A DNA stretch of 64,000 nt from Argopecten irradians (lineage: Eukaryota; Mollusca; Bivalvia; Pectinida; Pectinidae). Under the pieces are notes generated by a model, which saw only the letters and a program-made list of their open reading frames with translations, made no database searches and had not been told where the DNA came from. Shown in pieces: positions 14,422-60,480 of the stretch. Both the position numbers and the translations under genes were made by a program. Position 1 is the first letter of the stretch. Each line of letters starts with the position of its first letter. The stretch covers positions 34,772,679 to 34,836,678 of the forward strand of contig NC_091143.1 in assembly GCF_041381155.1 (NCBI RefSeq), written 5' to 3'.

Positions 14422-17400
14422 TTACAAGTGGCCCTTCATAACATCCTGTAGTTTTCTTCTTGCTTCCATTACTTTTGTCTCTTGGCGTCGTATGTCATCT
14501 TCTGATACAATCATTTGCTGAAATAAGATATATAAAAATAACAGACAATCATTAATAATTTATCAATAAATGCCTATATAATGTGAATGTAACATAAACT
14601 TCATGCTTTAAGAAAAATCATAAAACCATATCTACAAGGCACCTATTATTTAAATCATATTTAGACTCGTCATAAAATGGATTTATCTCCAGATCCCTTT
14701 GCACCAGAAAATATGCCTCTATTACTGAATGAGTTTATCTTTGATTTATCTCCCCTTTGACCCAAGCCTAACTCAAGATTTGTCCTCTTATAATTCTAGG
14801 GTACAACTTCCACTGGAATATTTCTATCTAAAATCTGAGAGCACAAGTCAAGTTGGCCTCAGAATAACATATGCACATTGATAGTAATATAACAATTTTT
14901 TCATTGAATATTGATACAGTGCAAAGATTTCATAGAGTTGAATCCTTTCATCCAGATGATGAAAAGTTCCCATATGTTGCACAAAAATAAAGCATCTTGG
15001 ATTTATCTCACTGTCAACTATCAAGAATAAGCTCTTCACCATTTAATACACAATCCTCGATTTCCCAGGGGTTGCTATTACTGTCGTCATAAACACCCCT
15101 GGAACATGTCATAGCAAAACTGAAGGTTATGTGCCACAGCAGATGAGAAAGGAAGTTTGGTCCTTTTAATGTACATTAAAAGAATTGTATAATGGATGTG
15201 TTACGATCAGTAACGGCGATTATTATACACAGGAATAAAGATTCATGACATCGTCATATTTCCCACTGAACAACTGAGGTCTAGCCCCGATCTGAGAATG
15301 GTTATAAACTCAGCTACACGCAATGTGATATACGTGATTAAAAGACAGAGAATCATAATTATATTCATTACTGATATTGGCATAATTAATAGAATGTATA
15401 TTTTATTATTAGAATTACTTGTGTGACGAATAACTGTCGAACTAACTAGCGATTTGAATCTAAACTAGAGCGTTAACATTTGGATTGAGTATTGAGATTC
15501 GACAGATAACAAAAATGACACAAAGTATGTTACATATATTTTTATCTAGAAACATTTATAAATATGTTCTTTTATGTTCATGGAAGTCACCTGAACTATG
15601 CTGCGAGATTGATATGTCATAAAACGTCATATTCGAGCCAGAGGCAAAAAATTACAGTTGACTATTTAGAGCTTTGAAGTTGGGCGTCTCTCTTTACTTC
15701 AGTTTTACTTTGACATATTCCATGGCTGGCTACCACAACAATAGTAATAGTAGCCCCAGGAATATCGAGGATTTATATTCACATGAGAAATGGACATAGT
15801 ACAAAATACTTGAGATTAAATTTAAACCTAGCTATACACAGATAATAATTTTTCATATGAAATTCAAGTGAAATTCACATGAAGGCCCTTTCACATGAAT
15901 TTCGTGTGAATATTTTTATCAAATGAAGATATCCGGTATAATGCCTGTGTATATGACAGGTTAAGATCAATTGATGCTGTATACCTACCTGTATATGTGG
16001 TTGGTTTGTGTCAATGTTGACTCCTGGGTTTTTGGCCAGTGTAGCTTTGTTGTTGGCCTGGCCAGTCACAGGGGCGTTACCTAAGTGTAGGGCAGCTGAT
16101 ATACTCTGTAGAATGTTTTCCGTGGTCAGTTCTGGTCCAACACCTGATGGAATACAAACGTAATTTTACATGGGCCGACACCTGATGAAATAGAAACATG
16201 ATTTTGTCACAGTTCTTCTCAGTATCTTAACACAACTTAAGTCCATGTGTCACAGCTCATCATCTCTTTTGATCTGATGATTATTGTCAATTTCAATTCT
16301 GGCCAACAACACCATATTATCTGTACAGTAAAACATGGTTATATCACTTTGTTTATATATATATTAGTGCTCTTATATATGTGTATATCAAAACAAGAGG
16401 CCCAGAGGGCCTGTATCGCTCACCTGGTTGTTTTTTTGGTTTTTTGTAATTATCACAAAGACTCTTACAATTAGAACAAGAGGCCCAGAGGACCTGTATC
16501 GCTCACCTGGTTTTTTGTTTTTGTTTTTTGTAATTATCACAAAGACTCTTACAATTAGAAAAATTAGTAAAATTGACCCCAAAATTTGTTTAATTTTGAA
16601 ACACAACCATATAATAATGCTATAGATACCATACAAATATGCTATCCAATACAAAGGTTCAGAGAGGAAGTAATTTATATGAAAATAGTAGCCTAATTGA
16701 CCTTTTTGGCCCCGAGTCTAAGGCCCCAGGGAGTCAGTCTCATCATTTGTACAATTTTGAATCCACACCCTATAAGGATGCTACCATTGCATTATGAGTG
16801 CTCTCCTATGCTTAGTTGCAGAGAAGAAGTCGTTTAAATGGAAATAGCCAAATGAATCCCTTTTGACCCCGCCCCTCAGCCCCCGGGGGATCAGCCCCAT
16901 CATTTGCACAATTTTGAATCCCCACCCTATAAGGATGCTACCATTGCATTATGAGCGTAATCCCATGTTTAGTTGCAGAGAAAAAGTTATTTTTATGGAA
17001 ATAGCCAAATTGACCCCTTTTGACCCCACCCCTCACGCCCCCGGGGGATCAGCCCCATCATTTGCACAATTTTGAATCCCCACCCTATAAGGATGCTACC
17101 ATTGCATTATGAGCGTAATCCCATGTTTAGTTACAGAGAAGAAGTGGTTTATACGGAAATAGTCATATTGACCACTTTTGACCCCACCCCTCAGGCCCCC
17201 GGGGAGTCAGCCCTATAATTTGCACAATTTTGAATCATCACCCTATAAGGATGCCACCATAGCATTATGGGTGCTATTTATATATATATCCCATGCTTAG
17301 TTGCAGAGAAGAAGTCATTTACATGGAAATAGCCAAATTGACCCCTTTGGACCTCGCCCCTCAGGCCCCTAGGGGGTCAGCCCCATCATTTGTAGAATTT

Positions 17401-20400
17401 TGAATCCCCATCCTATAACGATGCTACCATTGTATTATGAGTGCTATCCCATGCTTAGTTTCAGCGAAGAAGTTGTTTATATGGAAAAGCCAAATTGACC
17501 CCTTTTGACCCCGCCCCTCAGGCCCCCAGGGGGTCAGCCACATCATTTGTACAATTTTGAATCCCCACCCTATAAAGATGCTACAATTGCATTATGGATG
17601 CTATTCCATGCTTAGTTTCAGAGAAGAAGTCGTTTATATGGAAATAGCCAAATTGACTACTTTTGACCCCGCCCCTCAGGCCCCTGGGGGGGTCAGCCCC
17701 CTCATTTGTACAATTTTGAATCCCCACCCTATAAGGATGCTACCATTGCATTTTGGGTTCTCTCCCATGCTTAGTTTCAGAGAAGAAGTCGTTTAAATGG
17801 AAATAGCCAAATTGACCACTTTTGACCCCGCCCCTCAGGCCCCTAGGGGGTCAGCCCCATCATTTGTACAATTTTGAATCCCCACCCTATAAGGATGCTA
17901 CCATTGCATTTTGGGTTCTCTCCCATGCTTACTTTCAGAGAAGAAGTCGTTTAAATGGAAATAGCCAAATTGACCCCTTTTGGCTCCGCCCCTCAGGCCC
18001 CTAGGGGGTCAGCCCCATCATTTGTACAATTTTGAATCCCCACCCTTTAAGGATGATACCATTGCATTTTGGGTTCTCTCCCATGCTTACTTTCAGAGAA
18101 GAAGTCGTTTAAATGGAAATAGCCAAATTGACCCCTTTTGGTCCCGCCCCTCAGGCCCCTGGGGGGTCAGCCCCATCATTTGTACAATTTTCAGTTAGTA
18201 GCCCATAAGGATGCTACCAGTGAAATTTTGTTGAAATCCGACCAGCAGTTATGGAGAAGAAGTCGATTGTTGACGGACGGAACGGACGGACGGACGGACG
18301 GACGACGGACGCCACGGTATGGCATAAGCTGACCTTGGTCCTTCGGACCAGGTGAGCTAAAAATTAGTAAAATTGACTCCAAAATTTGTTTACTTTTGAA
18401 ACACAACCATATAATGATGCTATAGATACCATACAAATATGCTATCCAATACAAAGGTTCAGAGAGGAAGTGATTTATATGAAAATAGTAGCCTAATTGA
18501 CCTTTTTGGCCCCGAGTCTAAGGCCCAAGGGAGTCAGCCCTATACTTTGCCATACCGTTTAATTTTAAATCCCCAGCCTATAAGAATGTTACTATTGCAT
18601 TATGAGTGCTCTTCTATGCTGAGTTGCAGAGAAGAAGTCGTTCATAATGATAACTGCAAAAATTGCTCCCTTTCGACCCCGCCCCTCAGCCACCGGGGGA
18701 TCAGTCCCATCATTTGTACAATTTTGAATCCCCACCCTATAAGGATGCTACCATTGCATTATGAGTGCTCTCCCATATTTAGTTGCAAAGAAGAAGTCGT
18801 TTAAATGGAAATAGCCAAATTAATCCCTTTTGACCCTGCCCCTCAGCCCATGGGGGGAGGGGGGGGGGGGGTAAGTCCTATCATTTGTACAATTTTGAAT
18901 CCTCACCTTATAAGGATGCTACCATTGCATTATGAGGGTATTCCCATGTTTAGTTACAGAGAAGAAGTCGTTTATACGGAAATAGTCATACTGACCACTT
19001 TTGACTTTTGACCCACCCCCTCAGACCCCAGGGGGTCAGCCCCATCATTTGTACAAATTTTGAATCATCACCCTATAAGGATGATACCATTGCATTTTGG
19101 GTTCTATCCCATGCTTAGTTTCAGAGAAGAAGTCGTTTAAATGGAAATATCCAAATTGACCCCTTTTGGCTCCGCCCCTCAGGCCCCTGGGGGGTCAGCC
19201 CTATCATTTGTACAATTTTCAGTTAGTAGCCCATAAGGATGCTACCAGTGAAATTTTGTTGAAATCCGACCAGCGGTTATGGAGAAGAAGTCGATTGTTG
19301 ACGGACGGACAGACGACGGACGCCACGGTATGGCATAAGCTCACCTTGGTCCTTCGGACCAGGTGAGATAACAATTTTGATGGGGAATGAAAATGACAGT
19401 ACAGTATATATATAACCATAGATTCATTGTAAGCATGTTGGAACATTTTAATACCACTTGGCCACCGGGGCCCCCAACCCGGTGAAAGTGAGATGATGGG
19501 CTTAAAAGCTAGCTGTCTGTGAGTAAGAAGCCAACCCACAATTTTTGTTAGTTACTGGTTTAAATACTACCTAAATGACTCTGCTCATTGCTAGCTTTTG
19601 TCTTATCGATTTTAGTGTGTGTCGTGTCGGAGTATGTAAATTACCTTGTACATTTCTGGGTAAGTCGAGAGGCTGTAAGAACTCATCCCCACTGTCACAG
19701 GCTCGAATCCCCTGAAGTCTCTTCTCCCAAAACAACTGATCAGGAAAGAAAATCATAGTTTAAACAAAATATCCTCTACACTACACAATATCATACATCT
19801 AATGCATTTAATACCATATATAAATATTTCGAAAACTCAGTAGTTGCGCCCGAAATTTATTGAAGTATTAGTGTTGAACAGATGAGCACAGTAATATAAC
19901 TAATTCTAAACAATTATTGTTTGGCCAGTTATTTTTGTGAGGAAGATAATTGTGAGAATTCACAGAACATTCATTTATGATTGCGAAAAATTGATCTGCA
20001 AAATATTGATAAACGCAGGGTAATTAACCAGCTATATCGCATTAAAAATATGTAACTACATTGTGATCATCTTTTCCAGTGTTTTTCCTGGGTAGTTTGC
20101 GAAATTGCCACCTGGTAAAAATTAGGAATATTTGTGGGATAAAAATACGAAATTGGATAAAATTTTAAGCAGTGTTTATGGAAATTTTCGAAAAGGTTAG
20201 AAATAAACAATTATGCTTCCCTTAAAGAACCATTCTAAGAATGTACATACTAGAATACAATTTTCAGATTTGCGATTTCCGCATCAGTTTTTTTGTTTCA
20301 TCACACAAAATTCATGTCAGTCACGTGCACTCAATAATTTGGGAAATTTAGACATAGATTTTGGAAAAAAATAACAAGAAATACAATTTGGAATGAGGCC

Positions 20401-25594: not shown

Positions 25595-26942
25595 TTATAC
25601 GGTGGTCAAAATCGAGAAAGCTTTGTTTTGTCAAGACGCCATTACCGGAAATGAACCAAAGTACTGCGAAAAAGAAAATGGAAAGTTCCGATATCGAAAT
25701 ATAGTGTTCATAATATGATTATTTTACCGGATACACTCAGAGGTAAAGACAATTATTTGACTCCAATCCCAATACACAATGGTAATTTTAGGACGGTACT
25801 TATTATTCACCAAATATGCTAAATAATAAAAACATTGATATTTCGCGGATGGATATCTAAACGGCGACTCTTTTCTTCCACTTCCGGTTGTAGCAGACGA
25901 AAAGTGAACTCTTGCGGGAAATACATTTTTAGGTGAGACTGTCCATAGAACTAAATTGTTTTGGAAAAAAACTAAGGTGTAACAATTCATGATAGATCCC
26001 CTTAATATTTCACCTTTGACCCAATGGCTCTTGAATTAAACATTGTCTATTTTAAAACACAATATTAAAGCAAATGGAACTACAAATTGTACATGTAGAT
26101 AAAAGAGTAGCAAATTTTGAGTAGACCTTCTGTACAGTATAGTACAGAACGTTTATGCCAAACATTTGCAATTTCAAACGGACCATAACTAATCCTAAGT
26201 GTTCTGATTTTAATACTGGCGCTATACTAGAGTATCTCCTATGTATAACCAGGAGAGGAGAAAATGTAGACCGGGGCTAAAAACCGGGGACCTCTTACCA
26301 CTACTACCACGGAGCTCCCTGGTCACCGATGATCGACCCAGGTTAATTCCACCATATTCCTCTCTCATTTTTCAAAGTCTTCATCCCCGAAGACAAGATT
26401 CAAGAAATACAATACCCTGTATTTTTACTGACAAGTTTGTTATATAACACGAGAGGGAAATGAAGTGGCCAGACCAAGACTTTAACCCGAGACCTCCGGA
26501 CACTGAGCCAAATGCTGTACTAGCGCTGGTCAACGATGATCGACCTAGTCCAATACCGCCACATATATATATACAATGTATGTAGTAAGATCGTCATAAA
26601 ATTCAGACTATTATATATGTACATTCTGTTAATCTAGTGTTGGTAGCCCGATGTCAGAAGCATGTTCTGATATGTGCTCTTGCGCTGGTATATTGAATAC
26701 AAAACATCTATTTGTCATTATGTCAATGACTGGGTACCCAATGTATACACACTATACAAAAAATATATCCCAGGTTTTAACCCTGATCTGGCTGCTTACA
26801 TCTCTCTCTCCTCTAAACCTAAACTATTCCAATTAATCTCTTCTTAAAACATCCATATTAACTGATTTGAAATCTCCATTTTTGAAATTATGCTAAGCAT
26901 ATATTTATTTCTTTATATAATTTGCACCTGTTCAGATTTGTC
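25595..26942. other. Intergenic region between head-to-head MBD2/3 and BRCT-like genes
   Basis: About 1.35 kb between the two coding starts. It should hold the MBD2/3 promoter and that of the BRCT-like gene, so a shared or bidirectional promoter is possible. No clear core promoter motif is seen. A pair of tRNA-like repeat segments lies at 26240-26560. Confidence 0.5.
26240..26560 (-). repeat. Two related tRNA-like (SINE-type) segments
   Basis: AACCGGGGACCTCTTACCAC, then GGTCACCGATGATCGACCCAGG (26275-26342), resembles AACCCGAGACCTCCGGACAC, then GGTCAACGATGATCGACCTAG (26483-26550). Reversed, the GGTCTCGGGTT-type block looks like a tRNA B box, so these may be old tRNA-derived SINE pieces. No full tRNA fold could be drawn. 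Confidence 0.35.
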
Positions 26943-29900
26943 ATGCATGGTACCGGTGATGCAGGAACGTCACAGCTGTTCCAAGGACAAACAGCATGGT
27001 TTTCTTCTAGTGTTTCGAGCAGAAACATCAAACTTTGGAGTGAGTATGATTTCTCATTTGTTTGCAGAATCATTCTGAATGGTTTTATAATTAATTGATT
27101 TAAAAGATAATGAAATATTTATAGTACCAGTATGCAATATTGTATCTTTATCAATATCTATAATAAATTATAACATATTTAGTAGAATCTATATTGGATA
27201 ACAGCTAGTTGAAACTAATTAATATATGTCATAGTATTACAGTGTGATTAGACCTTCATTCATATTTAATGAGTCAGGTTTCATTAGTGAAAGTAAAAAA
27301 AATATAATTAGAATTTTATTAATATTACATACAATGACACAATAAATATTCTTAATATGTTTTACTGTCTTGCAGAAGAGCATGGAGGATTGATAGTAGG
27401 AATTGAACATGCTCAGTTTGTGTTTAGTGAAGATGAAGAGGCAGAGGATACAAAACAGTAAGCAATTACGTTAACTTAACTTCAATATCTCAATGTTAAC
27501 TGATTCACTGTCACTCTAGTGCTAGGTTGATGCTAGATGACATGGATAGTTTTGAAGACATGTCCTGTTTTGTTTAGAGTTAACCATTCCTGGCATATAA
27601 TATAATATAATTTATCACATAATCCACCGGATATCCAGTGATTTTGCCCGTTTAATATTTTTGCGTATGTCACTAGTGTAATATGACCTGGAGCGATTTT
27701 TATTGGCTGGAAATCCATTGTGACGTCTGACAGAAACAATACAATGACGTCAGGAAAAGTGACGTGACGTCAGAATTATGAGGACGGCGGGAGAGAATGG
27801 CGTCCAAGGCTCTCAAAAATAAAAACTTCTTTGACTCGTTTCATAAAATCTCATATGAAATGATCACTCATGTACATATGTAAGATCCTATATATATAAT
27901 ATTTTCTATATCTATGGTATGATTGTAAAATCTTTTTCTCTAAATTGACTTAAAAATTTTTTTCCCAATATCTTATTTGATTAGTTTGGCTTTGAATTGG
28001 AAATGGTCACAGAAATGAAGGTTCTGGATTTCACACTTAAAGATCTTTTTCATAATTCAGGATTTTCAGCAGTGAGGCTTACATTGATGAGCATCTTGCT
28101 GTATTTCATGCAAAGTATGTGTCTGATGCTGTTAAACAGAGTGACGGTACTAAAATACCACTGGGGGACTACTTTCTACCACCTAAGGATATACAACAGT
28201 GTAAGTCTCCCTGTCCTTCCATAATGAATGTAACGTAAAACAATTGTTTAAACTGAATGTAACTGGTACCAGCATAAAGACAGATTTCAGATTATACAGG
28301 TTTTAATTACTTCAAGTAAAGAAGGAAAATGTACATACAATTAAGTCAGAATAGATAGTGATCCAGATTAGCTAAGGACTGATTTTCACAGGTCATACAT
28401 AACTGTATACAAATTTATGTTGCAGTTATTTAGTAATTGACATAAAGTAATTGACATAAAGTTATATGGCTAGTACTGAGATCCTTTTAAAACTCTTTCA
28501 AGTTCCATCAGTGGCATTCAGAGTTAAACCTTGTCTGTAATGGTAAATGGTTTTTTTGATTATTCAAAAATGCAAGATGGCCGCCACTTTTAAAACCTAT
28601 ATTTTTGATGCTGTCTTTTTCAGTTTTACCATATCATATTTGGACTAATTAATCTTCATGGGAATCAATATTGTACTTTTGTAATTTCAGTACCACTGCT
28701 TTGTATAGGTGAGTTCTGTGTAGCAATTAAGGTACAATTGTATGTGTAAATCAGTTCACCATTGATATAGGCCTATTTCGTGTCTTATCACCGATGTTTT
28801 TCAAATATTGTTTATTGGAACAATTTTATTTGTTTCAAACGTTATTGAGGAGATTTGTAATTTTTCTATTATTATAGTTATCAAAAAGCAGATGAAATTT
28901 AAATGGGATAAAGAAAGTGAAAGTAACAAGGATGATGACTCAACGCCAGATAAAGAGGTAATTGTTTATTTTCAAAGATAAATGCAGCATTGGTATTTTA
29001 AAACTTTGGTGTATTATTGTAAAATAGAATTATATTTTAGAATTTTGAGATTTTTAAGAGAAAAAAATTCTTATTTCCACTTTGATATAAAATACCTATT
29101 AATCATTTATCATTAGTATTGGTATTAGAAATTCAAGTTACAATATATATATCCACGTTCTAGGGAGATGAAAACGAAGATCAAGTCATGGAAAACTGCA
29201 GTCGACATAGCAACATAATTCAATTTGATGGTGAAGGTTTGTATATTGAGTGTTTTGGTTACAAATAGATGTAAAAATTGAAAGCAGATTTGAATTATTA
29301 AGACATTGTCTGCAATTTCTGGAAATATAGGTAAAAAAATAATACCAGATCTGAAAAATTATTTATTACTCAGGTTGGTCGATACTACCTGTCTGACACT
29401 TTTTTCTGAATACCGGGGGGTAGTACAATGTTAAAAGCTCCAAGAAATGTCAACCAATATTTCCTCAAACTTTAAATGAAGATGAAATGCCTAATAATTC
29501 TACAAAGTTTTTAGCTCACCTGGCCCAAAGGGCCGGTGAGCTTATGTCACGGCGCGGCGTCCGTCGTCCTTCGTCCGTCCGTCTGTCCGTCCGTCTGTCC
29601 GTCAACATTTCCTTTAAATCGCTACTAGTCATAAAGTTCTGCATGGATTGTAACCAAATTTGGCCACAAATATCCTTGGGGGAAGGAGACCAGAACTTGT
29701 ATAAATTTTGGCTCTGACCCCCCGGGGGCAGGAGGGGCGGGGCCCAATAGGGGAAATAGAGGTAAATCCTTTAAATCGCTACTTGTCCTAGAGTTCTGCA
29801 TGGAATGTAACCAAATTTGGCCAAAAGTATCCTTGGGGGAAGGGGAACAAAACTTGTATAACTTTTAGCTCTGACCCCCTAGGGGCAGGAGGATGGGGCC

Positions 29901-30878
29901 CAATAAGGGAAATAGAGGTTAATCCTTTAAATCGCTACTAGTCATAGAGTTCTGCATGGATTGTAACCAAATTTAGCTACAAACATCCTTTGGGGAAGGG
30001 GAACAGAACTTGTATAAATTTTGGCTCTGACCCCCCAGGGACAGGACGGATGGGGCCCAATAGGGGAAATAGAGGTTAATCCTATAATCGCTACTTGTCC
30101 TAGAGTTCTGCTTGGATTGTGACCAATTTTGACCACAAACATCCTTGGAGGAAGGGGAACAGAACTTGTTTAAATATTGGCTCTGATCCCCTGGGGGCAG
30201 GAGGGGTTGGGCCCAATAGGGATTTAGAGGTAAATATTCAAATTCCTTCAGAAAAGAAACAATGAACCTGTATTCAGAACATTACTTGGCATTACAAACC
30301 AGGTGAGCGATACAGGCCCTCTGGGCCTCTTGTTTATTTAACAATATTCAGTGGAGTTATGCCCTTTATTTACTAAAAATTTCATTTTCTACTAAACAAA
30401 ATAAAAAAAAATAATCTAAAATTTCTTCCAGCTCAGCATTTTGCTTTTATTGTTTAGAAACTCCATCAAGTTCATAATCAGATAAACACGATATAAAGCT
30501 AGTATATTAAATTAGTAATCTGAAATAAAAGGCCACATTAAATTCAAATCAAAATAAAAAATTGTTTCTATATAACTATATAAATAGCTATTTGTTTCTT
30601 GAATTATTTCCATCAAGTTCGATTTTCACATCCAGCAGATGTACATAATTTGGCAGATCGAGTTATAGCCCCTTGATTTTTCTTAACAAACACCAGGCCA
30701 TTTTGTCATTTGTTTTTCCTCAAGTTGCTGGTAACACATCCTGAAATTACATCTTGTTTCAGATTATGTAGACATCCAAGGTTTAGCTAAAATAAGTGGA
30801 CCAATTACCAATTTTATTCCTGGAGAAAATGGTTGTGAAATAAGACTTAAGAACAAAAAGACTAAGCCTAGAATGTGA
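26943..30878 (+). CDS. Small protein with a probable single BRCT-like domain, six coding exons
   Basis: I cannot name this gene. Exons 26943-27039, 27376-27457, 28061-28200, 28878-28957, 29164-29236 and 30763-30878 have GT-AG borders and matching phases, giving 588 nt (195 residues). Residues ~8-105 look like a BRCT fold: LFQGQTAWFSSSVS, then LWKEHGGLIVG, a short acidic loop, then YIDEHLAVFHAKYVSDAVKQ and IPLGDYFLPP. The pattern (hydrophobic strand, HGG turn, YV.D.V..., L.DY.L) resembles the N-terminal BRCT of Rap1/TERF2IP, but the rest does not match that ~400-residue protein. Residues ~110-165 are charged and probably disordered; the C-terminus is basic (RLKNKKTKPRM). The ATG at 26943 sits just after a usable acceptor (TTCAG at 26932-26936), so an upstream exon may exist. 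Exon 6 ends inside a 67-bp repeat array. BRCT proteins usually act in DNA repair or chromatin; function here is unproven. Confidence 0.7.
29509..30333 (-). mobile_element. Reverse-oriented pearl-like element (intron 5 of the BRCT-like gene)
   Basis: It is read on the minus strand. Its right end is at the left here: TTAGCTCACCTGGCCCAAAG, then a CCGTCCGTC microsatellite (29566-29603). The core has about four units of ~145 bp with TTTAAATCGCTACT, GTTCTGCATGGATTGTAACC, ATCCTTGGGGGAAGG and CTCTGACCCCC near 29620, 29768, 29932 and 30088. It ends CCAGGTGAGCGATACAGGCC, then CTCTGGGCCTCTTG, the reverse complement of the left end of the element at 16393. Confidence 0.75.
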
Positions 30879-31482
30879 CATTATCCCTGGAGAAAGTGGT
30901 TGTAAAATAAGACTTAAACAAAAAGACTATGCCTAGAAAGTGACATTATTCCTGGAGAAAATGGTTGTGAAATAAGACTTAAGAACAAAAAGACTAAGCC
31001 TAGAAAGTGACATTATTCCTGGAGAAAATGGTTGTGAAATAAGACTTAAGAACAAAAAGACTAAGCCTAGAAAGTGACATTATTCCTGGAGAAAATGGTT
31101 GTGAAATAAGACTTAAGAACAAAAAGACTAAGCCTAGAAATTGACATTATTCCTGGAGAAAATGGTTGTGAAATAAGACTTAAGAACAAAAAGACTAAGC
31201 CTAGAAATTGACATTATTCCTGGAGAAAATGGTTGTGAAATAAGACTTAAGAACAAAAAGACTAAGCCTAGAAATTGACATTATTCCTGGAGAAAATGGT
31301 TGTGAAATAAGACTTAAGAACAAAAAGACTAAGCCTAGAATGTGACATTATTCCTGGAGAAAATGGTTGTGAAATAAGACTTAAGAACAAAAAGACTAAG
31401 CCTAGAAAGTGACATTATTCCTGGAGAAAATGGTTGTGAAATAAGACTTAAGAACAAAAAGACTAAGCCTAGAATGTGACAT
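30814..31482 (+). repeat. 67-bp minisatellite, 10 copies, starting inside the last coding exon
   Basis: ATTCCTGGAG (ATCCC in copy 2) recurs at 30816, 30883, 30948, 31015, 31082, 31149, 31216, 31283, 31350 and 31417. The unit is 67 bp; copy 2 has a 2-bp deletion. Copy 1 is coding (residues FIPGENGCEI to KPRM and the stop). The other nine are in the 3' UTR. Copies 3-10 are nearly identical, so expansion was recent. As 67 is not a multiple of three, the copies cannot form one extended reading frame. Confidence 0.9.
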
Positions 31483-31678
31483 AGTTGATGGCTATAGAAA
31501 CTAAAATGGTGTGATTATTTATGGGGACTGAAATGGCAGAAAAAGTATGCCATAAAAGTATTATTATTGCTGCTTTATGATATTTTGAAAACAATCTGAT
31601 GATATTTATATATATATATATATTGTACATATTTTTGATTTTGAATTGCTGATCATGTTCTGACTACGTTCAATTGTT

Positions 31679-31727
31679 TGTTTGGCACTATATAATATGG
31701 TATTTCCATATTATATAGTGCCAAACA
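31679..31727. repeat. Perfect 22-bp-arm hairpin
   Basis: TGTTTGGCACTATATAATAT (then GG) and its exact reverse complement are separated by the five bases TATTT. It lies about 200 bases after the minisatellite, in the likely 3' UTR of the BRCT-like gene. It could be a tiny MITE remnant or an RNA stem-loop. Confidence 0.8.
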
Positions 31728-32428
31728 TACTGTTATTTATATATACTCCATATTTATTATACTAAAACATATTAGAGAGAACTGTAAAAAAATTAAATAA
31801 ATTACAAAATAAATTAATGTATTCGAGATTAGAAATGTCTTTTTATGTTTATAAATAGAAATTAAGTTGTGTACATGTTTGAATTAAAAAATAATGGTTT
31901 TTGTTGGATAGCATCTTAAGTGTTTTTGTATAATGTACAACACAAAAACTCCACATTTCATATAAGTATTTTTTTTATTTATTGACTTCTTTTATTCATA
32001 CAAGTTATCTGTAAAATTTCATCATACTTACTATTCTCTAAATTAATATTCTGAATCACACACAATTAATGCACACCGATCATGGTTTTCAAAATGTATA
32101 CACTACATTGTATAGGAAATAGAGTAACATGTACAATGTACAGGATAAGAAATGTTCATTTCGCCTAAATTTCAAGTACAAATACTCTCAGATCTTAAAT
32201 TTTCCATTAAAAATATGCATTGTTCATAATATTCAATGTTTTTGTATTATAATTATAAATTTTTGTTGTTAATTTTTCTGAATTTTTTTTCTCTAGATTC
32301 TGTTTAGAATTATCGCTAAATGCCATTGAAAGTTTATATCTCTATAGAGAAAATACATAATCAAAACTTTTGTTTCTTGAAAAAGTTCTTTTGTAATAAC
32401 CATTGTTTTACTATAAGTGATTTGGCTA

Positions 32429-32898
32429 TAATCAATGTGTAAATAAATCCATGTTATATCTAATGTAGAAATCAGACTAGAAGTGATACCTAGAATGTGA
32501 AATACCGGTATGGCAATTTTGATAAAAAGATGATAAAGACTATATTACTTACAAATGTAACTATAATATTTTACATCATTAATATCACATGAGTACTCAA
32601 ATCACAGATTTAGCATTAATGTACAGCTGTAGTATTATATCACAAAAAGTTCAACTGAGACCTTCAGTGCACAGGAGCACCTGGACTTGGCATGAAGTTC
32701 CCTATCAAAGATATATACTATACTTTCCTGAAGAGGTGTCATTAGACGGCGTAAGTGCAAGTGGAAGTTTGTTGCCAAGGTTTTTTTTAAATTTACATAT
32801 TGAAAAAGATTATTTGTCATAATTGTTGTGATTTTTCTATAATTGCTTATTATCAATGTGTAAATAAATCCATCTTTTATCTATTAAATGTAGAAATT
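32429..32898 (+). repeat. Pair of ~45-bp direct repeats
   Basis: ATCAATGTGTAAATAAATCC, AT, TTATCTA and AATGTAGAAAT occur at 32429-32472 and again at 32850-32898 with small gaps. They may mark the ends of a local duplication or a decayed element. Confidence 0.45.
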
Positions 32899-34358
32899 AG
32901 GTAGATATTGATTTGAAATTCATGTTAAGTCCCTGTGTATAGCAGCATAATAAGCAAAATAAAGTTCTTCAAGATGATGAAATAATTTGATATCAAAGAT
33001 AAAAACGTAAAACCATCAACCTTTGTTTTTAATGAACATTTGTAAAATGGAAGAACAATTTTTTTTCTTCAAAAAATTGACAAATTAAATTTGCTAGCAA
33101 CATTTAATACACTGTACAATGTCATGTAGTTAGAGTTGATGTGTACCTACATGTGTAAGATTGATACCTCTTAACTCTCAAAATTAAGCCATACACAAAA
33201 TTTAGAAAAATCATACATGTTGAGAAACTTTCATTTGAATTAGATTTAAAAACATCAATGACTATAAAGACTTTTATTATCCCAACAGGTTCAACTGTAT
33301 CCGAATTCATTTTGTCAGTATTTCAAATGAAGAAGAGGTGCAGCATAATGTGAAAGACAGTACTTCTTTTTAAGGCTCACAGCCATTGATAACTACTCTT
33401 AATATATAGAAGTGAAACAGTAATGCAATATATATGAAACTTATGCCAATGATATAATGACAGTACTAGAGACAGTGAGAATTTATAAAGAAGAGACAGA
33501 AATTTTCACTTCTAACTGGAAAAAATAATTTATTGAATAATTTCTAAACTGTTAGTTATTTGTAATAGAGCGGTTTGAATGCAGGTGACAGATGAAATAA
33601 TATGTTGAATTATGTGTAAAAAGCAACATTCTATCTGATAAACATGTATATATTTACACAAAATGGTGAACAATTATTAACACAAGATCATACAAAATAT
33701 TTCTATTTCATCTGTTTCAAAGATTTCATTTGGAATAGAAATACTATGTCTGAATGACTATATCACATTTGGCATTAATTTTTCATTTTGTAAATGAAAA
33801 TCATGAACACACACTCATCTTCTAATATCTTCTAATATCATTGTATTTCATCCCATTCAAACTAAACACAATCAACATGTATCTTTCATTTCCATATGAC
33901 ATTGCATTAATTTAATTCATTCTTAAAATATATGCCATATAGGAATGTCTTCAATTAATATCATTAAAACTGTGTGATAAATGTAAGAAAATATCAATTA
34001 GAAAAACAATATCAACAAAATAATACTGGCATTTCATTAGAGCAGTATGTTAACAACAAAATTATGAAAGTAAATGGACATATTGATAAATGATTAGTAA
34101 GTGATGAGCTGAAATTGAATCTTTGTGTTGTACAGAGTTATCTGCCCTAGAGAGCTGGTGGTATTGATTTCTATTACACTGGTTTTCACGAGCTGTGTCA
34201 TTGATTAGTGAGAAGATGACAATTGTCTTGCAGCAACAGCCATTTCACTTGTGAAAATGATACAACAATCAGTACCTGTTTGAATGATAAATTCTGTAAG
34301 ACAAAAGGATTCAATGACATAATGCCTATTATATATGATATTTTGTCTTTGCATTTTA

Positions 34359-37038: not shown

Positions 37039-40000
37039 TCACCAGTAGAGATACACATAACAAGATAATCCATAGTACAAGCAAATGTTCTCAATCGCCC
37101 GCTGTAGTGTGCGCATTGTCCAGATCAATAAACACGTACAGTAGTTGTCTATTGCAAGAGAGTATTCATTCTCCAGAGAAATTGCCATGCCAAAACTCCA
37201 GATAGCTTCCTCAAACAGACCCATCTCCATCATGGAATATCCCAGAACTGAGTATAATATGGGAATGTCTGTTTCCAGAGCTTCATACAACAGAAGGAAG
37301 AGGTGTTTCTCTGCCAAATCCATTTGGTTGAGGTTCTTGTGTGATAGGATAAGAATGTACCTCGCTAGGGCTGAGGGAGGTAAGACTACCTCCTCCTGTG
37401 TGTCTACTTCATCCTGTAGACAGTCTGGCAAGGTAACCTTGTCAAGTCCACCGTACACAAGATCTGACGCAAAATCAATGTCCTCAATCTTGAGCGCATC
37501 TTCTAAGTACATAACGGCGTCATCATAATTTCCTTGGCTGTAAAGGAAGTTCCCATATTTTACACAAACACTAGGATTCTGGTCTAGCTTGAGAGCATCT
37601 TGGAAATGCTGTTCTGCAGCAAGGATCATCTCCAACTCTCCTTCATTGTCCTCGCATACACATGCTTTTACATAGCACATGGTAGCAAGGTTGCCAAGAG
37701 TCACAGACATATCTGGTCCTAGCTCACCCTTATGTATTTCCCTGTACACTTCCAAGCTCTCCGCAAACGATTCTATCGCCTTGTCTACGTCCCCAGCCAT
37801 TGAGTGAATGTGACCCAGTTGATAGAGTGTGCTGATCAGATCTCCTTTGATGTCCTCCCCCATAACTTCCTGCATGTCATGGGCTTGCTCCAAGTAATGG
37901 ACAGCATTTTGGTATTGTTGCATGCTGATGTGTGCCTCGGCAGACTTGCTGATCAGCTGGTTATGCATAGTCATATCATCAGACATTGCGTTTGGATCAA
38001 ACACTTCATCAAAAGAAATCTGGCTCTCGCATTCTCCATACTCTAAAGCTTCATTGTAGAAGCCTAACGCCGTCTTATAATCGTACTGTGCAAAGTGACA
38101 ATCGCCAAGAATCTGCAGAACTCGCATGAATTGTCTACGATCCCTCATTTTTGAAGCCATCATCAATGTCCGTGCAACTGTGAGATATTTTATAGCTTTC
38201 TGATGAAGAGAGATGATGTTGTACGAGTTGCCCATCACGTATAATACTTGGCAGACCATCCAGAATTTCTGCCTTGGCAAATGAGGCAGTTTGCTGCCGT
38301 GCATATTGCAGAAAAGTTCAAACGCTTGATAGCACATGGAGACGCATCTATGATAATTTTTCATCTTATAAAATGTGATGCCCATAAATGATATGACAAG
38401 TCCGTGCATATAAGTGCTACTGAGACCAGATGCATATTTGACTAAATGAAGAGCTAGTTCAAACACTGTAGCAGCCCTTGGGTAGATATGCAACATAAAG
38501 CTTGAAACACCAAGCATACACATTACATGAGCATTCTCCATAATGAATTCTCTCCCGTGAGTGGAGGTGTCGCGAAACAAACTGAGGGATTTTTCAAAGC
38601 ATTCTAACGCTCTGTCATAGTCTTTCTGCATAAAATAGCAATCGCCCAACCTCATGGTAGCTTTGGCTACTACCATTCTGTCATTTTCCTCACTCTCCCG
38701 GCAATGAAGTAGAGAAAGAGCTTCTTTGTAACAATGTGCAGCCTCTTCTATGTTCTTTTCTTCTTCTGCTGTCTTCTGTGGAGAAGAAGGCTCCGACTTG
38801 TTTGGACTAGAATTTGAGCTTTCATTATCTGAAAAGTCTTTCTCAAAGAACTCACGAATGGCAGAAATTGCATCATCATAAACACCGTCGTCATTGTTTT
38901 TGCCTACCACATACCCGTTACCAAGCTCTAGGAGGGCAGTAGCTATTTCTAAATTGGATTCCTCATCTTGCAGGTCACGGTATGTTTCTAGCGCCTGGTT
39001 TAGAAGGGCTAAACCTGCAGAGGACTTCCCTTGCTTTGATTTGACAGTACCCAAGTTTTTCATAACCTTTGCACTGAATCTTAACATGCCAGCAGTCCCG
39101 TCCATTATCTCATCTAATATCCCCATTACTTGCTCCAACAAGACCTCGACTTTTCTATACTCCTCCTCTAACATAAGTTTTTCAGCAAGTCGAGTGTAGG
39201 ATTTAGCTAATGTGAGTTTTATGCTGTGTTCATGAAGAGGTGATATTATTTCTTTGTCCTTGTACTTATTGTCCGAAGCGCGCACGTCTAATAAATTCTG
39301 GTTCTTTATGCATTCTTTTCTCCCATTTCCATTTCCAGACACTTGTACGACGCTTTGGAACTTGCAATGTTTCCTGTCATTTAAGAAAAAGTCCCAACCG
39401 TCTTCATCTACATCACTAGACGCTAGTTCGAATCCGAACGCGTTGTCTACAACCGGCATGGGAGAGTCTTTCGCGTTCGGGTCAATTTCATCAATTCCCT
39501 GCAAGTCACCATGATCCCAGTCTAGAGAACTGCATGAACTTTCAGACATTATACTTGCAGTATCATCATTATTCTCCTTTAGTGACGATGTGGTTTTCCG
39601 CTTGAAAAGTCTGTTGAAAATATCACCCAAGTTCTTGGATTGGATTCTGTCATGACAATATTCCAGAAATTTCGTGAGCCAATCCAGACCAACATTCATA
39701 TCATCGACGCTAGCATGGTTGTCGGTTTTACCCGTCAATCGGTCGTGCATACTTGGATACAAGCTAAAACTATTTCCAGAAGAGAGCGGAAACATTCCGA
39801 GAGATGGTGTACTTGGAGTATTCGGGAATGAAAACGACCGGAATGGGTCCATGAATTTCCTCCCCTCGTGTTTGAGACAGTTATAAAGCGCTCTGTTAAA
39901 GCTATCTTCTAATGGACGACATTTTATTTCTGCTGCTTGTTTGTGCTCATTGTACCATTCTGTGTCTTGATTGTCAAGGTTTTCCTCAAGTTCCGAGTCG

Positions 40001-42056
40001 CAAACTTCACAATTGTACTGAAGCAGAGAAATAGCATGCATGCAAAGCCATTGCCACTCCATTGGGTTGGACCTGCACATTCTACTTCGCCGAATGCAAA
40101 CATCAGCAAGTCCATTTAAAACTTGTACTAAGATTTTGGTGTTGTCTTCCGGCTTTTCTTGCATCTGTTGATAAAGTTTAAGAAGTTGTTTCTCGGCGTC
40201 TTCAAGCCTAGAACTGTTCAGCATTTCGAGAGCATTATTGAGGGAGTCTGACAGGCTTGAAGAACTCCCAGAATCCATCTTCTCGTCCAGCATCTGTAAT
40301 TTATAATTTAAGAACGGATAAGTAACTCGGATCGCAGATACCAATACATTTTTAAATGTTTATACATTTGTTATACACATGTTAACTTTCTTGTTCTAGT
40401 CGCTCACACTGACAGAAAAGCGAAAATCTCGAAATATTGTAACGTGTCGTTTTAATTTTATAATAAACTAGTACAAAAAGGTAAAATTCTCGCAAATTAC
40501 GCAAGTTGGGTTTTTAAGGATTTTACTTTAATTAGCCATATCTATTGAATTCCATTGATGTCATGACAAGATCAACATCATGAAAATTATAAATTAATGA
40601 TTCGTTCATGTATTATTCTGGAACATTTCGATTTGCTAAATGACCGTCTTAAACACTAGATGAATGGGCATTTGTGTATGGATCATGAAGTACGATATGA
40701 AACGGGGACATATAGTGGTTAAAATTCAAATTACCAAATCATCATCGGTGTCTGGTGTTTCTGCTTCATCCGATGTGCTGCTCCTGTAACCATACTTGTT
40801 GTTTGTGGTAGAATCAGAAAATGAAGCTGATTTACTGATGAGGCTTAGTTTGGGCAAAATTAACTGAGTGGAAGACATAGCGAATTGACTTTGTGTTGTT
40901 GCATCTGAAATATACAAAGAATTGAGAATTAATTGAACAAGTTAAAACAGAAAAACCGAAAAGAATGTGACGGAAATATAACCATTTCAGCTAAACGTAG
41001 AGTTAACTTTGTTTAAGGTCCCGTAAGAAGTGTATTTTTTTTTTATTTCATTTTGTTTAGCTTGTAAAAAGCTATAGGATGTTTTCTATTAGGTGGGTTA
41101 CTCGGGATTGATTTGGGGTTTCTTGTTGGTTATTTCGGTAGGGAACAGTAATAATGAAATATCCTTTTTATAGGAATTTCGGACTGGTGCAATAAAATCT
41201 TAAGAGATTTTGAATATAACACACGTACGTCAAAGGAAAGAAACTGCTTACTAAATTCTTGAATATGTTCTGTTTGGAATTAATTGGAGGTGTGGGGGAG
41301 AAGTAGAGGAGTAGGTAAAAGGATATGGTTTACATTGTTTATGTTTTGTAGCTGATATCAATTTGATCATAAACTTGTTTTATTGTTCTCAATGAGCATC
41401 TCCTCATTCACATTGTACGATATCAACACGACCTAATTGACGTCAGCTATAAGACCAACATAAATCTAACACTGACGTCATCAGTCAGTCAATGCCAAAA
41501 ATTCTCTGGAATACGCTGCGAGAGAAAAAGAACAACATCGTTTGATCGATGTATGAACTAGTTACGGTACCAACCATTCAACTGCACATGTAATTTATCC
41601 TCAATCCGGTGACATCATACGACTATTTATAGCAAATATCGATTTGTAACTGATATTTATAATATTTCAAATTGTATCATAACAAAAATGGCTAAAGTCA
41701 AAACAGTACTTGGTGTAATCGTCAGTTTGTAAAACAAATATGGCAAATATAGGAATCTGTTAATTAATGTTGAATGTAAATCAATAAAAGAGCCTTTGAT
41801 CAGCCATGTATACATTATCGAGACTGGAGTCTAGACTCCATAAACTACTGAACGAACGCTTTACAACTGCGTTAGAATGCAATAAAAACATCAAAAATAC
41901 CAAAAATGATTTGATATTACAAAATTGGCCAGGGTTACAGCAGTCATAGATAATGATACCTTGTGATAAGTGAAGCGGTGCAGGTTGCATGTGCGGAATG
42001 TGAACACGGTAAATGTTGATGGCATCCTCAGGGTTGATTTTCCTTGCAAACACCAT
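37039..42056 (-). CDS. Large tetratricopeptide-repeat (TPR) protein, three exons shown
   Basis: I do not recognise a named orthologue. Exons in transcript order: 41960-42056, 40735-40904 and 37039-40293, with matching phases, giving 3522 nt (1173 residues). The first 89 residues and the next ~350 are Ser/Asp-rich and mostly low in predicted structure, with acidic runs (PDTDDDL; ASSDVDEDGWDFF). From about residue 440 to 1130 there are many TPR helical hairpins, for example RLGDCYFMQKDYDRALECF, ILGDCHFAQYDYKTALGFY, QLGHIHSMAGDVDKAIESF, YGNFLYSQGNYDDAVMYLED and LGYSMMEMGLFEEAIWSF. The G..Y...A.E.. signature is clear. TPR arrays bind peptides or partner proteins, so a scaffold role is likely but unproven. 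The last exon holds over 90% of the protein. Exon 1 is open upstream in frame to a stop without an earlier ATG, so the start at 42056 is reasonable. Exons at 55.6 and 56.6 kb may be alternative starts. Confidence 0.82.
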
Positions 42057-44646: not shown

Positions 44647-46293
44647 TCACGATAGGAAGAGTTTTGGAGAGTGGAGCTTCGATGAACTTATAGTTCTGTT
44701 ATCACTTTGATCTGTGTCCTTAGTATTAACTGATAAATCCTTTCGAGAAGATTCAAATCCTTTCTGAAAAAATTCCTTTGCGTCCAATTTTAACGACTCT
44801 TTACGTTGTATTGGAGTAAATGTATCCATCTTTCTCTTGTGTCCTGGAGACAAGAATGTGATACACGTAATGCCCCCAGCTTGTCGCCTTTGCAACTTCT
44901 TTGAAATCAGTCTTTCCCTTTCCTTCTCACTGTCCAGACTGTTGTTTAGCTCGGAACTGATTAAGCTAGTATTATTACTGTCAATTGCGTCTGAACAAGT
45001 TTGGTCTATCATTTTCTCTGCGTTTTCGAATGAGGTATTTGTGTCATTTTTACTGGTATCTGAATGCTCATCTGGTCGTTTAGTAACTGATTTCATAGAA
45101 CTTAGCAACTCCCAAATAAGTTTGTCTTCAGCGTCCCACTCTGGGTCCAATCTGTCAATGTCAATGTCACTGTTATTTAAACTGTCATGCGTGTTTGTTA
45201 TTTCATTTGTCACATCTGTGTCTGTTGAATTGTGACGAACCCATCTCTTGCGTCTAGCACCTGTTTCTGAAGAGGTCATTTCCTGTGGGGTAGAAGTTTG
45301 AAACATCTTTGGTTCGCCTATTTCTGTTGAATCCATATCTGAATTTTGAGTTAATCTATCACTTGATATACTGCAACACGCGCTTTCCGGGTCAGAATGT
45401 ATTCGTTTAGGAAATAATAACGGAGAAGCCTTCTTTGGTTTAGCACTACATTCTATATAATTTGGTGATACTGTTCTGTGATCACTCATAGACATGCTTC
45501 GCCTAGTGGATAGACTTCGCTGATCACCACGTGTTGGTCTGCGCTCTGAAGGAGACCTGCTGCGTGGTCGGATTATAACCACAACGTTATCCGTCTCTGA
45601 ATCTTTACGCGTGATAGTCTGTATCCCAGTGGCACCAGTAACTGGCATGTCTTCACCACTGCATACCTTTGTCTTTGGAATAACATAATCGTAATTCCTT
45701 GGATATGTCGGATTCGAATTGTCGTCCCAGTCCCAAGGTTTCTTTGCTTTTGGATCCAAAATATGTTTTGTAGTATCGTCAATATCCGTACAACCTATGA
45801 ACTCTGAAATGGTCATGACCTCAACAGTTTCAATACCATCATTTAAATCCTCGTGTTCGAAAACTATGTCATGAATCCCAACGTCGGCACCAGAGCAAGC
45901 ATTATTCATTGGAAGGTTTCTATCCTCTTCCAAACTGCTATCAGAATCTCCACTTCGTGAAGTTTTCTCACAAAAATCTGACAAGTCTGGGGCATCTGGC
46001 AGTTGTATTTCCTCAGTGAGATACTGATTTCTGTCTAACACGTTTGATGAACTACTGGCGCAATTGTTTTCTTGTGTGTTAAGGCATTGCACAGATGCAC
46101 TTTTGCACTCTCCATGCGATTGTCGCTCGCTGTTGTCAGATGGAACACCTGATGTATCATCAGTCTCTTCAACTTCGATGACGCTGTTAGGTGCTTCTGT
46201 GGTTGTTTCACATTGTGTAGGCATGCTTCTTGTAACCTCATTACTACTGTCACCCACTAAATCACAACATGAGTTAATCGTGTCACAATTCAT
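44647..46293 (-). CDS. Intronless gene for a disordered, acidic, Ser/Thr-rich protein
   Basis: A single 549-codon frame (548 residues) with no recognised domain. Residues 1-180 are acidic and rich in Ser, Thr, Asp and Glu. Residues 181-208 (PKAKKPWDWDDNSNPTYPRN onward) form an aromatic, proline-containing patch. Residues 241-275 are basic and serine-rich (RPRSRSPSERRP; STRRSMSMSDHR), like kinase or 14-3-3 sites. GARRKRWVRHNS (345-356) could be a nuclear signal. RLDPEWDAEDKLIWELLSSM (381-400) could be a short amphipathic interaction helix. An in-frame TAG lies upstream, so the ATG at 46293 is a sensible start, though an acceptor in that upstream stretch cannot be excluded. The length without stops in AT-rich DNA, and a nearby AATAAA, argue for a real gene. 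It lies inside the long intron that would form if the 55.6-kb exon splices to the TPR gene. Confidence 0.72.
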   Translation of the reverse strand: MNCDTINSCCDLVGDSSNEVTRSMPTQCETTTEAPNSVIEVEETDDTSGVPSDNSERQSHGECKSASVQCLNTQENNCASSSSNVLDRNQYLTEEIQLPDAPDLSDFCEKTSRSGDSDSSLEEDRNLPMNNACSGADVGIHDIVFEHEDLNDGIETVEVMTISEFIGCTDIDDTTKHILDPKAKKPWDWDDNSNPTYPRNYDYVIPKTKVCSGEDMPVTGATGIQTITRKDSETDNVVVIIRPRSRSPSERRPTRGDQRSLSTRRSMSMSDHRTVSPNYIECSAKPKKASPLLFPKRIHSDPESACCSISSDRLTQNSDMDSTEIGEPKMFQTSTPQEMTSSETGARRKRWVRHNSTDTDVTNEITNTHDSLNNSDIDIDRLDPEWDAEDKLIWELLSSMKSVTKRPDEHSDTSKNDTNTSFENAEKMIDQTCSDAIDSNNTSLISSELNNSLDSEKERERLISKKLQRRQAGGITCITFLSPGHKRKMDTFTPIQRKESLKLDAKEFFQKGFESSRKDLSVNTKDTDQSDNRTISSSKLHSPKLFLS

Positions 46294-48125
46294 GGTGTTA
46301 GGAATCCATGTTTCTTCCGTACAATGACACTAGCGGCATCATATGTGCTTCAAAGTGTAACCAATATATGCTTATTCTCCCTGAGGGACATTTTTGTATT
46401 GAATCCGACCTTGTGTCACAGGCCATTTACTCCTGTTTGTATATATATTTGCTTTGTACAACAAACACGTTTCCTCTTTTGTGAATACACACGTCTGTCA
46501 TGTGATCTTAGCCACAGCACAAGCAGTAAAATGTAAATAATATGTGCTATGATATATATTACAAAATCTGTCCATTGACCGCATACTTATAGCCTTGGTC
46601 AAGATAGCATTTTGGAATAGAAAATGTTAGATTCCTGTAGTAAAATCCAGTTTAGGGAATTGAAATATTCCGAAAATTTCTTTTACATACAATAATGGAT
46701 ACATGTACACGCGTTAATCCACGGGCTCACAATCAACACTCATAGCGTAACATTATCAATACACACAAAACGATTTGGCAAGTATATCTTATGTAGATAG
46801 AGAGTTGCCAAGGGAAGTATCCGTAAGGTTTTACCGGAGATTCAGATTACAGCCTATATATAATCTCCTGTTTTGTAATCCCAATGATGTAATGAATCTG
46901 TCGGTTTGTAAAGCATGGTATCTCTATACACTAAGGCGTTCCGCTCCACATGTTAAAGTCTTTTCAATCCAAGGACCGTTTAGTGTAGCCGTAAGTTTTA
47001 AAGCCTATCAACTATTCAACGTCATTCATATCACGCCTGTAGATTTTGATAGGCATCCCGAAATATATTTTGATATAAAATGTTAATGACTGAAGGTTTC
47101 GTTCAACCATTACGCCCACAAACGCGACAGCGTAGCCCAAATAGAAATGTTCACATCCGACAGGTTTATATCATTGTTTCATGGCATCGCCAGCGTCACA
47201 GCGTCCGTGTGAAAATGTCTTCGTTACTGTTATTGAATACGCAGAGAAATAACGTTATATTTCGTGGTATATCCACTATATAACATTAAAGCCCTTCCAT
47301 GCTGTCAATAAGAGAAGTTATCCAAGCATGTAGAGTTGTTTGTCTGGAGACGAGTCCAGCTAGAATGTGTGTATTGCTGGACTGACTTAATGTCCAGAGG
47401 TAAAGTCATTAACTTCATCCTTCCTCTCTCCGCATTACCTATACTACACAGGTGGTACAGAAACACAGGTAGTCGCCAAACAACCCCCGGGCAACTCGTG
47501 GTTACACCCACACCGATTTATTCTCAAGGCTTAAAGAAACTGCGCACAGTTAAAGCCTTCTTTCAACCGCATAGTAAGCTTAATGCTCTTTAGATTTAAT
47601 ACCGGTATTGATAAATCTAAACCTTATATTGATACTTTTAAAAAACGAAATCCAAAGTTAAGCATTCAAATTAGCAAAATTTAATTCCTACCCTAAATGC
47701 TTAAAAGTCAAAGTAAAAATATGATATTTTATCTTATATTTCAAGCTGACAATACTTCAGAGAAAGTGATTATCTACAACTGTAAACGTACCAGTGAGGT
47801 CAACTGTCCAATAAGACTGGTTACCATTGTGTGTAAACCCATATTAGGACCGACAGATTAATGTGAATTACCGTCACTTTTGTAAGAGGGCTCACAACTC
47901 AAAGGCAAATTGAATTAATGTATATACTATGCGTGACCTAACAAAGCCAAATGGAATTAGTGAAATTACATTTGGATAATAATATTTTTGTACTTCAGGC
48001 ACTCGCTTGATAATTTTATTTGAAGTTTGGTTATTACGTAATTAAATTCACCGTCAGAGAGGTGGCGCTTATTATTTTCATGAAAAAGTTGATAATTTCA
48101 GTATCATTTAACAGAATGAATTAGT
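46294..48125. other. Non-coding or unrecognised stretch upstream of the 548-codon gene
   Basis: It should contain the promoter of the 548-codon gene. Several short open frames at 46775-47593 overlap on both strands, lack splice support and resemble nothing I know. They are not called as genes. Confidence 0.35.
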
Positions 48126-59347: not shown

Positions 59348-60480
59348 TTAGGTCATCTGATCAGAAGGGTCAGGATGACCTATTGTCATCATGCACCGTC
59401 CGTCGTCGTGCGCCATCCGCCGTCCGCTGTGCGCCGTGCGCCGTCCGCCGTGTGTAAACTTTTCATTCAAACGACTTCTTCTCAATAACCGAAAGGCCCA
59501 GGCTACTGATATCTGGTCTGTAGCATGCTGGGATGAAGGGCAACCATGTTTGTTCAAATGAATGACTTTGACCTTCATTTAACGTCACAGGGGTCAAATA
59601 GGCTAAAATCCTTTAAACAACTTATTGGGAATAACTAAGAGGCCTAGAGACCTGATATTGGGCCCCTGACATGCTGGGATGAAGGGCTATCAAGTTTGTT
59701 CAAAGATTTAAGCCTATTTGACCCCTGTGACCTTGAATGAAGATTAAGGTCACAGGGGTCAAATAGGCTTAAATCTTTAAACGACTTCTTCTCAATAACC
59801 AGAAGGCCCAGGGTACTGATATTGGGCATGTAGCATGCTGGGATTAGGGGCTACAAAGTGTGTTCAAATGAATGACATTGACCTTCATTCAAGGTCACAG
59901 GGGTCAAATAGGCTAAAATCTTTCAACGACTTCTTTTCAAGAACGGAAATGCCCAGGGTTCTCATATTGGGCCTGCAACATGCTGGGATGAAGGGCTACC
60001 AAGTTTGTTTAAATGAATGACCTTGACCTTCATTCAAGGTCACAGGGGTCAAATAGGCTGAAACCTTTAAACGACTTCTTCTCAAGAACCAGAAGGCCCA
60101 GAGTACTGAAATTAGGCCTGTAGCATGCTGGGATGAAGGGCTACCAAGTTTGTTCAAATGAATGACATTGACCTTCATTTAAGGTCACAGGGGTCAAATA
60201 GGCTAAAATCTTTAAACTTCTTTTCAAGAACGGAAAGGCTCAGGGTTCTCATATTGGGCTTGCAACATGCTGGGATGAAGGGCTAATGACCTTGACCTTC
60301 ATTCAAGGTCACAGGGGGCAAATAGATTAAAGCCTTGAAATAACTTTTGTGGATAAGTAAGAGGCCGAGAGACCTGATATTTTGCCTGTGACATACTGGG
60401 ATGAAGAGCTACCAAGTTTGTTCAAATGAATGACCTTGATCTACATTCAAGAATGTAGAATTCAGAATCTGAAGAGCTCC
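59348..60480 (-). mobile_element. Reverse-oriented pearl-like element, ~7 units of ~145 bp
   Basis: Near the left edge is a CCGTCCGTCGTCG / GCCGTCCGCCGTG GC-rich microsatellite-like block (59396-59456). Then come units containing AAACGACTTCTTCTCAA, AGAAGGCCCAG, ACTGATATTGGGCCTGTAGC, ATGCTGGGATGAAGGGCTAC, GACCTTGACCTTCATTCAAG and GGTCACAGGGGTCAAATAGG. ATGCTGGGAT recurs near 59527, 59670, 59834, 59981, 60126 and 60267. It has the same architecture as the elements at 16.4 and 29.5 kb but an unrelated core sequence. Confidence 0.65.

Follow-up and report, generated by a model that had tools for sequence, protein, structure and literature searches.

A tandemly repeated 67-bp unit carrying the predicted coding end and stop codon of TERB2 in Argopecten irradians

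In the window analyzed here (64,000 nucleotides of Argopecten irradians, contig NC_091143.1 of assembly GCF_041381155.1, positions 34,772,679 to 34,836,678; positions below are those of the window and, unless stated otherwise, of its plus strand), a 67-bp stretch occurs as ten tandem copies, the first of which (copy 1) closes a complete TERB2 reading frame. TERB2 is the tie between meiotic telomeres and the nuclear-envelope protein MAJIN. The array is probably a transcribed, functionally passive 3'-UTR minisatellite that grew out of the coding end of this gene. If this reading is right, we are looking at a clean natural case of a repeat that overlaps coding sequence and is shielded from the consequences, the stop codon lying inside the unit though 67 cannot be divided evenly by three. 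Please note that the analysis rests on one haplotype in one assembly.

Tandem Repeats Finder reports the whole array (30814-31482) as a single one with a period of 67, 10.0 copies, 97% matches, 0% indels, and a score of 1254; with ten units of 67 bp at 97%, it is a minisatellite by definition (tandem units of about 10-100 bp), in one assembly and at one locus. Cutting the units at CCTGGAGAAA also gives ten, with starts at 30819, 30886, and 30951 and thereafter every 67 bases up to 31420. The bases 30763-30812 are unique exon sequence, 30813 is the edge base, and the array starts at 30814. The original prediction had placed the array at 30763..31482, which is right for the end and too far upstream for the start, and its central claim, that a minisatellite had come from the coding end and stop of a last exon, is borne out, since the exon completes a TERB2 frame and TERB2 similarity crosses the upstream edge of the array. 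It had also spoken of nine near-identical extra copies; there are nine, only eight of which are near-identical, copy 2 being decayed.

Copy 1 (30813-30879) is coding, copy 2 (30880-30944) is 65 bp long, and copies 3-10 (30945-31480) are 67 bp each and differ mutually only at unit positions 62 and 63. Copies 4 and 9 match copy 3 exactly; relative to it, copies 5, 6, and 7 are changed at unit position 63, copies 8 and 10 at position 62, and copy 1 at positions 1 and 62, whereas copy 2 shows four substitutions along with a deletion of 2 bp. Copies 1 and 3-10 thus vary among themselves only in the last sense codon (positions 62 and 63), except that copy 1 also differs at position 1, the edge of the array. 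A search of the whole genome (846 Mb) with 30763-30900 as the query, in which the best candidates were scored, gave at least 10 matches, all at the TERB2 array locus. Elsewhere in the window, on both strands, the best ungapped match to the 67-mer is 36 of 67 positions, so the array is not a product of chance.

The gene that ends in the array is identified, from its predicted protein, as the meiotic telomere gene TERB2. The spliced model joins six exons, whose boundaries are AG/GT and whose phases agree, and it encodes 195 residues up to a TGA stop at 30876-30878. The coding part of exon 1 (26943-27039, residues 1-33) runs from a proposed ATG to a GT donor, with similarity beginning at residue 13 (Pfam) or 15 (PDB chain 6j07_A). 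Exon 2 (27376-27457) reaches 20.9 bits against PF15101 at profile positions 21-48, alone below the cut-off, and exon 3 (28061-28200) reaches 32.8 bits at positions 48-93. Exon 4 (28878-28957, residues 107-133) is where the 6j07_A alignment stops, at residue 119, and the best Pfam stretch extends into the first half of exon 5 (29164-29236, residues 134-158). Exon 6 starts at 30763, after a TTGTTTCAG acceptor, and its coding part (30763-30878) holds the putative MAJIN-binding motif, the basic tail, and the stop.

The 195-residue protein matches Pfam PF15101 with 129.5 bits (E 2.2e-37; cut-off 27) in two stretches, the best being residues 13-146, and in PDB it matches 6j07_A (E 1.9e-14) over residues 15-119, the predicted N-terminal TERB1-binding domain. 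The model contains YFLPP, which is a form of the [F/Y]xLxP motif of TERB2 described in the available text of PMC7227075. When the PF15101 profile was run against the genome of the same animal with E up to 1, it matched at three places; these all lie in the window, in profile order (exons 2, 3, and 6), and only exon 3 is over the cut-off on its own. The gene had earlier been taken for a BRCT-like one; the spliced protein, run through hmmscan with hits up to E 1, returned no BRCT, and gave TERB2 and one sub-cut-off family instead. That family, Tox-WTIP (E 0.24, below its cut-off), was dismissed as chance, as were two further PDB chains in the full-protein search (E 0.72 and 8.9). As in TERB2 of the TERB1-TERB2-MAJIN complex, an N-terminal domain with YFLPP, a C-terminal motif with FIPGxxG, and a basic tail follow one another in the same order; unlike in known TERB2, the final 20 codons together with the stop here form a tandem repeat at the DNA level. 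A MAJIN-family match was found as well, on another contig of the same genome and just over the cut-off of 27: PF15077 scores 31.5 bits at C1:3465343-3465894, and the single frame there, open from its ATG and 431 residues long (L020:814-2109, minus strand), scores 28.2 bits with 430 of its residues covered.

The C-terminal TERB2 match is weak and is backed by its placing, frame, and motif. Profile positions 172-203 of PF15101 match within 30750-30845 with 18.3 bits (E 0.97), below the cut-off alone. The last-exon peptide, searched against all of PDB up to E 10, retrieved three TERB2 chains only, at weak E values of 0.8-1.4, with FIPGENG here aligned with FIPGTSG there; these three chains are constructs of one and the same TERB2 stretch, and they are absent from the full-protein PDB search up to E 10. 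The upstream edge of the array falls in the codon of Phe175 (30813-30815), which pairs with the FIPG Phe of the aligned chains and is likely, on this alignment, the counterpart of human Phe192. The chain lengths of 6gny_B and 6gnx_B, combined with the construct limits 168-207 and 168-220 given in the accessible part of PMC6297230, put the aligned Phe at human 192, whereas the 36-residue 6j08_D, combined with the limits 168-202 from the accessible part of PMC6361898, puts it at 185, in conflict with the Phe192 of the same paper.

What is known of this end of the protein comes from human and mouse. According to the available text of PMC6361898, human TERB2 no longer binds MAJIN in cells once Phe192 is replaced by Arg, and with F188R, the mouse equivalent, telomere attachment is disrupted and the animals are infertile. 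In human TERB2, the final seven residues include five basic ones and are described in the available part of PMC6297230 as essential for DNA binding by the MAJIN-TERB2 core, and MAJIN linkers can compensate for their loss; the corresponding human end contacts MAJIN and DNA, holding telomeres at the nuclear envelope (PMC6361898, PMC6297230, in the parts available). In the protein predicted here, K or R make up six of the last 11 residues, every one of them inside the unit. In the predicted frame, unit 1 comprises the 20 final codons, which encode the tail that follows the key Phe, then the stop and a single 3'-UTR base; the Phe codon itself lies at the edge. The TERB2 identification is useful on its own, the end in question being the one that carries MAJIN and DNA contacts in the human counterpart.

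Could the array be intergenic or intronic, with TERB2 ending in another exon, or could the repeat be an assembly artefact? The last exon alone is under the Pfam cut-off and its PDB matches are weak, as would be expected in the former case; however, the frame, the splice site, FIPGxxG, and the basic tail all suit a TERB2 end, and the copies carry both shared and private variants, which would not readily come from a simple copying error in assembly. We consider both versions of this explanation highly improbable, and the exon is taken below as the predicted last exon of TERB2.

With the predicted splicing, translation would terminate in copy 1, and copies 2-10 would belong to the 3' UTR. A polypeptide spanning the downstream copies was ruled out: stops break all three forward frames within the array, and in-frame read-through past the first stop would add only eight residues before it ends. 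On the minus strand of 30813-31490, the longest open run is 51 codons. Substituting each copy for copy 1 gave the same tail in nine of 10 cases, differing only in the predicted last residue, which is M for copies 1, 8, and 10, K for copies 3, 4, and 9, and N for copies 5, 6, and 7; copy 2 would yield a shorter, altered tail. Because every unit carries its own stop, gain or loss of whole units should leave the protein nearly unchanged, with at most its last residue altered (M/K/N), and a unit length that is not a multiple of three should do no harm because the stop lies inside the unit; the array would thus be free to vary at small cost. If copy 1 exchanged sequence with any of copies 3-10 on the downstream side of the edge base, Phe175 and the basic tail would be retained. 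That a change of copy number could move or convert the C-terminus, as had been proposed, is doubtful when each unit has a stop and nine of 10 encode the same tail but for its last residue. The TERB2 array would thereby keep apart two questions that are often confused for coding repeats, one about instability of the DNA and the other about harm to the protein.

The extra copies probably lie in the 3' UTR, as judged from the nearest candidate poly(A) signals. Two AATAAA hexamers, at 31796 and 31808 (31796-31813), were found by string search as the first ones downstream of the array and are the presumed signals; within 30763-33000, AATAAA occurs downstream of the array only, but a non-canonical poly(A)-like AATAAG, a point against this reading, occurs once per copy. 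Nine copies would therefore follow the stop and precede the nearest AATAAA past the array, and the effects of tandem sites could sum there, and one could imagine a regulatory 3'-UTR element, acting through RNA structure or binding sites, that makes the stability or translation of TERB2 mRNA dependent on copy number. However, the array RNA folds no better than chance, neither as three units (z +0.74, 200 shuffles) nor as a whole (z +2.0, 40 shuffles), and the unit taken three times gives z +1.25 against 200 shuffled units taken three times, which runs against the earlier idea that the repeats may fold in the mRNA; Rfam at gathering scores has zero matches in 26500-33000. Such a regulatory role is very unlikely in our view, and the array is probably a curious feature and a passive one.

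The presumed 3' UTR also contains, downstream of the array and ahead of the AATAAA hexamers, an almost perfect inverted repeat of 25 bp whose loop is 5 bases long (31676-31730). Its RNA fold is at -35.3 kcal/mol (z -9.4), and a search of the same genome matched only the same place and its own reverse complement.

The repeat units also contain potential splice acceptors. GGAG/AA (the slash marks the cut) occurs in nine of nine extra copies (30893-31432) in the phase that fits exon 5, after nine to 10 pyrimidines in 18 bases; the acceptor of exon 6 in the gene model has 11 of 18, and the other four have 12-13. Splicing from exon 5 to a later copy at these sites would produce TERB2 forms with the basic tail and without the MAJIN-binding motif. 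But the phase alone fits by chance in one-third of cases, the same GGAG/AA site is also in copy 1, and, by the splice consensus, a G before the AG together with an interrupted pyrimidine stretch makes a weak acceptor. We give alternative last exons of this kind hardly any credence.

As for the origin of this passive minisatellite, the coding copy would be the ancestral one, because TERB2 similarity crosses the upstream edge of the array (both matches at the edge are weak alone). The ATG variant at the unit end is found in the outer copies 1 and 10 and also in copy 8, and its presence at the array edges fits a retained ancestral state. Inspection by eye of the flanks and the junction showed that at most a single T is shared at the duplication break. 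One tandem duplication through end-joining or template switching may have started the array, and unequal exchange or slippage may have enlarged it later; this growth would be recent, or the array homogenized, because copies 3-10 scarcely differ. Against simple stepwise growth, copy 2 has five changes while the copies that flank it, copy 1 and copies 3-10, are nearly identical. Constraint on copy 1 combined with recent amplification of the rest would explain this pattern, and so would exchange between copy 1 and the distal copies.

The latter possibility leads to a reading in which the downstream copies are a sequence reservoir, with exchange or gene conversion with copy 1 keeping the TERB2 tail uniform or shuffling M, K, and N at its end. 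It would account for the identity of copy 1 and copies 3-10 over unit positions 2-61 despite the decayed copy 2 between them, and for three last-residue variants with three copies apiece, copy 2 aside. Much the same pattern is expected from recent amplification of copies 3-10 and protein constraint on copy 1, though, and the variants alter the last residue only; moreover, conversion that included unit position 1 would make Phe175 an Ile, which might harm MAJIN binding. A reservoir is therefore unlikely. Taken to its extreme, the array would store self-terminating cassettes of the TERB2 tail that contacts MAJIN and DNA, the coding copy being constantly overwritten by meiotic exchange, and a meiotically unstable repeat would then maintain and slightly vary a protein that aids meiotic chromosome pairing; we regard this version as decidedly unlikely and retain the passive minisatellite as our reading.

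Minisatellites and VNTRs in 3' UTRs are a known general class, and the array resembles them in that nine of 10 copies lie beyond the stop, in the presumed 3' UTR; it is unlike them generally in that the first copy is coding and the unit is derived from coding sequence. Protein-coding tandem repeats in general are also already known (PMC1273636, in its available part). A close comparison is the coding VNTR of human CEL, which, like the array here, is a tandem repeat within the last exon; in the accessible text of PMC8692231 the CEL units are 33 bp, or 11 residues each, so that copy number alters protein length, whereas the TERB2 unit is 67 bp with a stop inside and copy number should not change the protein. 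The occurrence of TERB2 in Mollusca is reported in PMC7227075, the accessible sections of which mention no repeat in TERB2. Our search of the literature on stop-codon-spanning repeats and on bivalve TERB2, whose scope left most subscription journals outside, found no stop-carrying unit or TERB2 repeat in the text available. A Giardia paper that matched on repeats at stop codons was set aside, the phrase in its accessible text referring to an alignment of gene ends and not to a repeat. A minisatellite at the end of a gene is thus known; the placing of the stop inside the unit is what is unusual.

Several features of the surrounding sequence were recorded. About 1 kb past the array, at 32489, there is a 12-base match to the unit, CCTAGAATGTGA, for which the chance expectation is roughly 0.01 (any 12-mer of the unit in 1518 bases); over 32489-32504, 15 of 16 positions match the end of repeat copy 10, which may be a remnant or chance. 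Nearby, two diverged direct-repeat pairs in 32377-32462 and 32800-32883 (41 nt at 88% and 30 nt at 77%) lie 421-423 bp apart and are perhaps an older local duplication. A dispersed element in the last TERB2 intron (29500-30340) combines a CGTC-rich stretch with four tandem repeats of 156 bp; it has at least 97 matches in the same genome when the best 40 of 7612 candidates are scored, the best other match listed being 95% identical. On the minus strand, an open frame of 560 codons, stop to stop, at 44650-46329 has no Pfam match at E 0.01, and another of 1106 codons, also stop to stop, at 37042-40359 has many TPR matches. More tandem arrays, with units of 145-171 bp, are located at 6944-7970, 16640-18219, 18670-19247, and 59746-60285; two of them are near GACG- or CGTC-type repeats (18272-18311 and 59400-59452), and these arrays may be similar repeat-bearing mobile elements.
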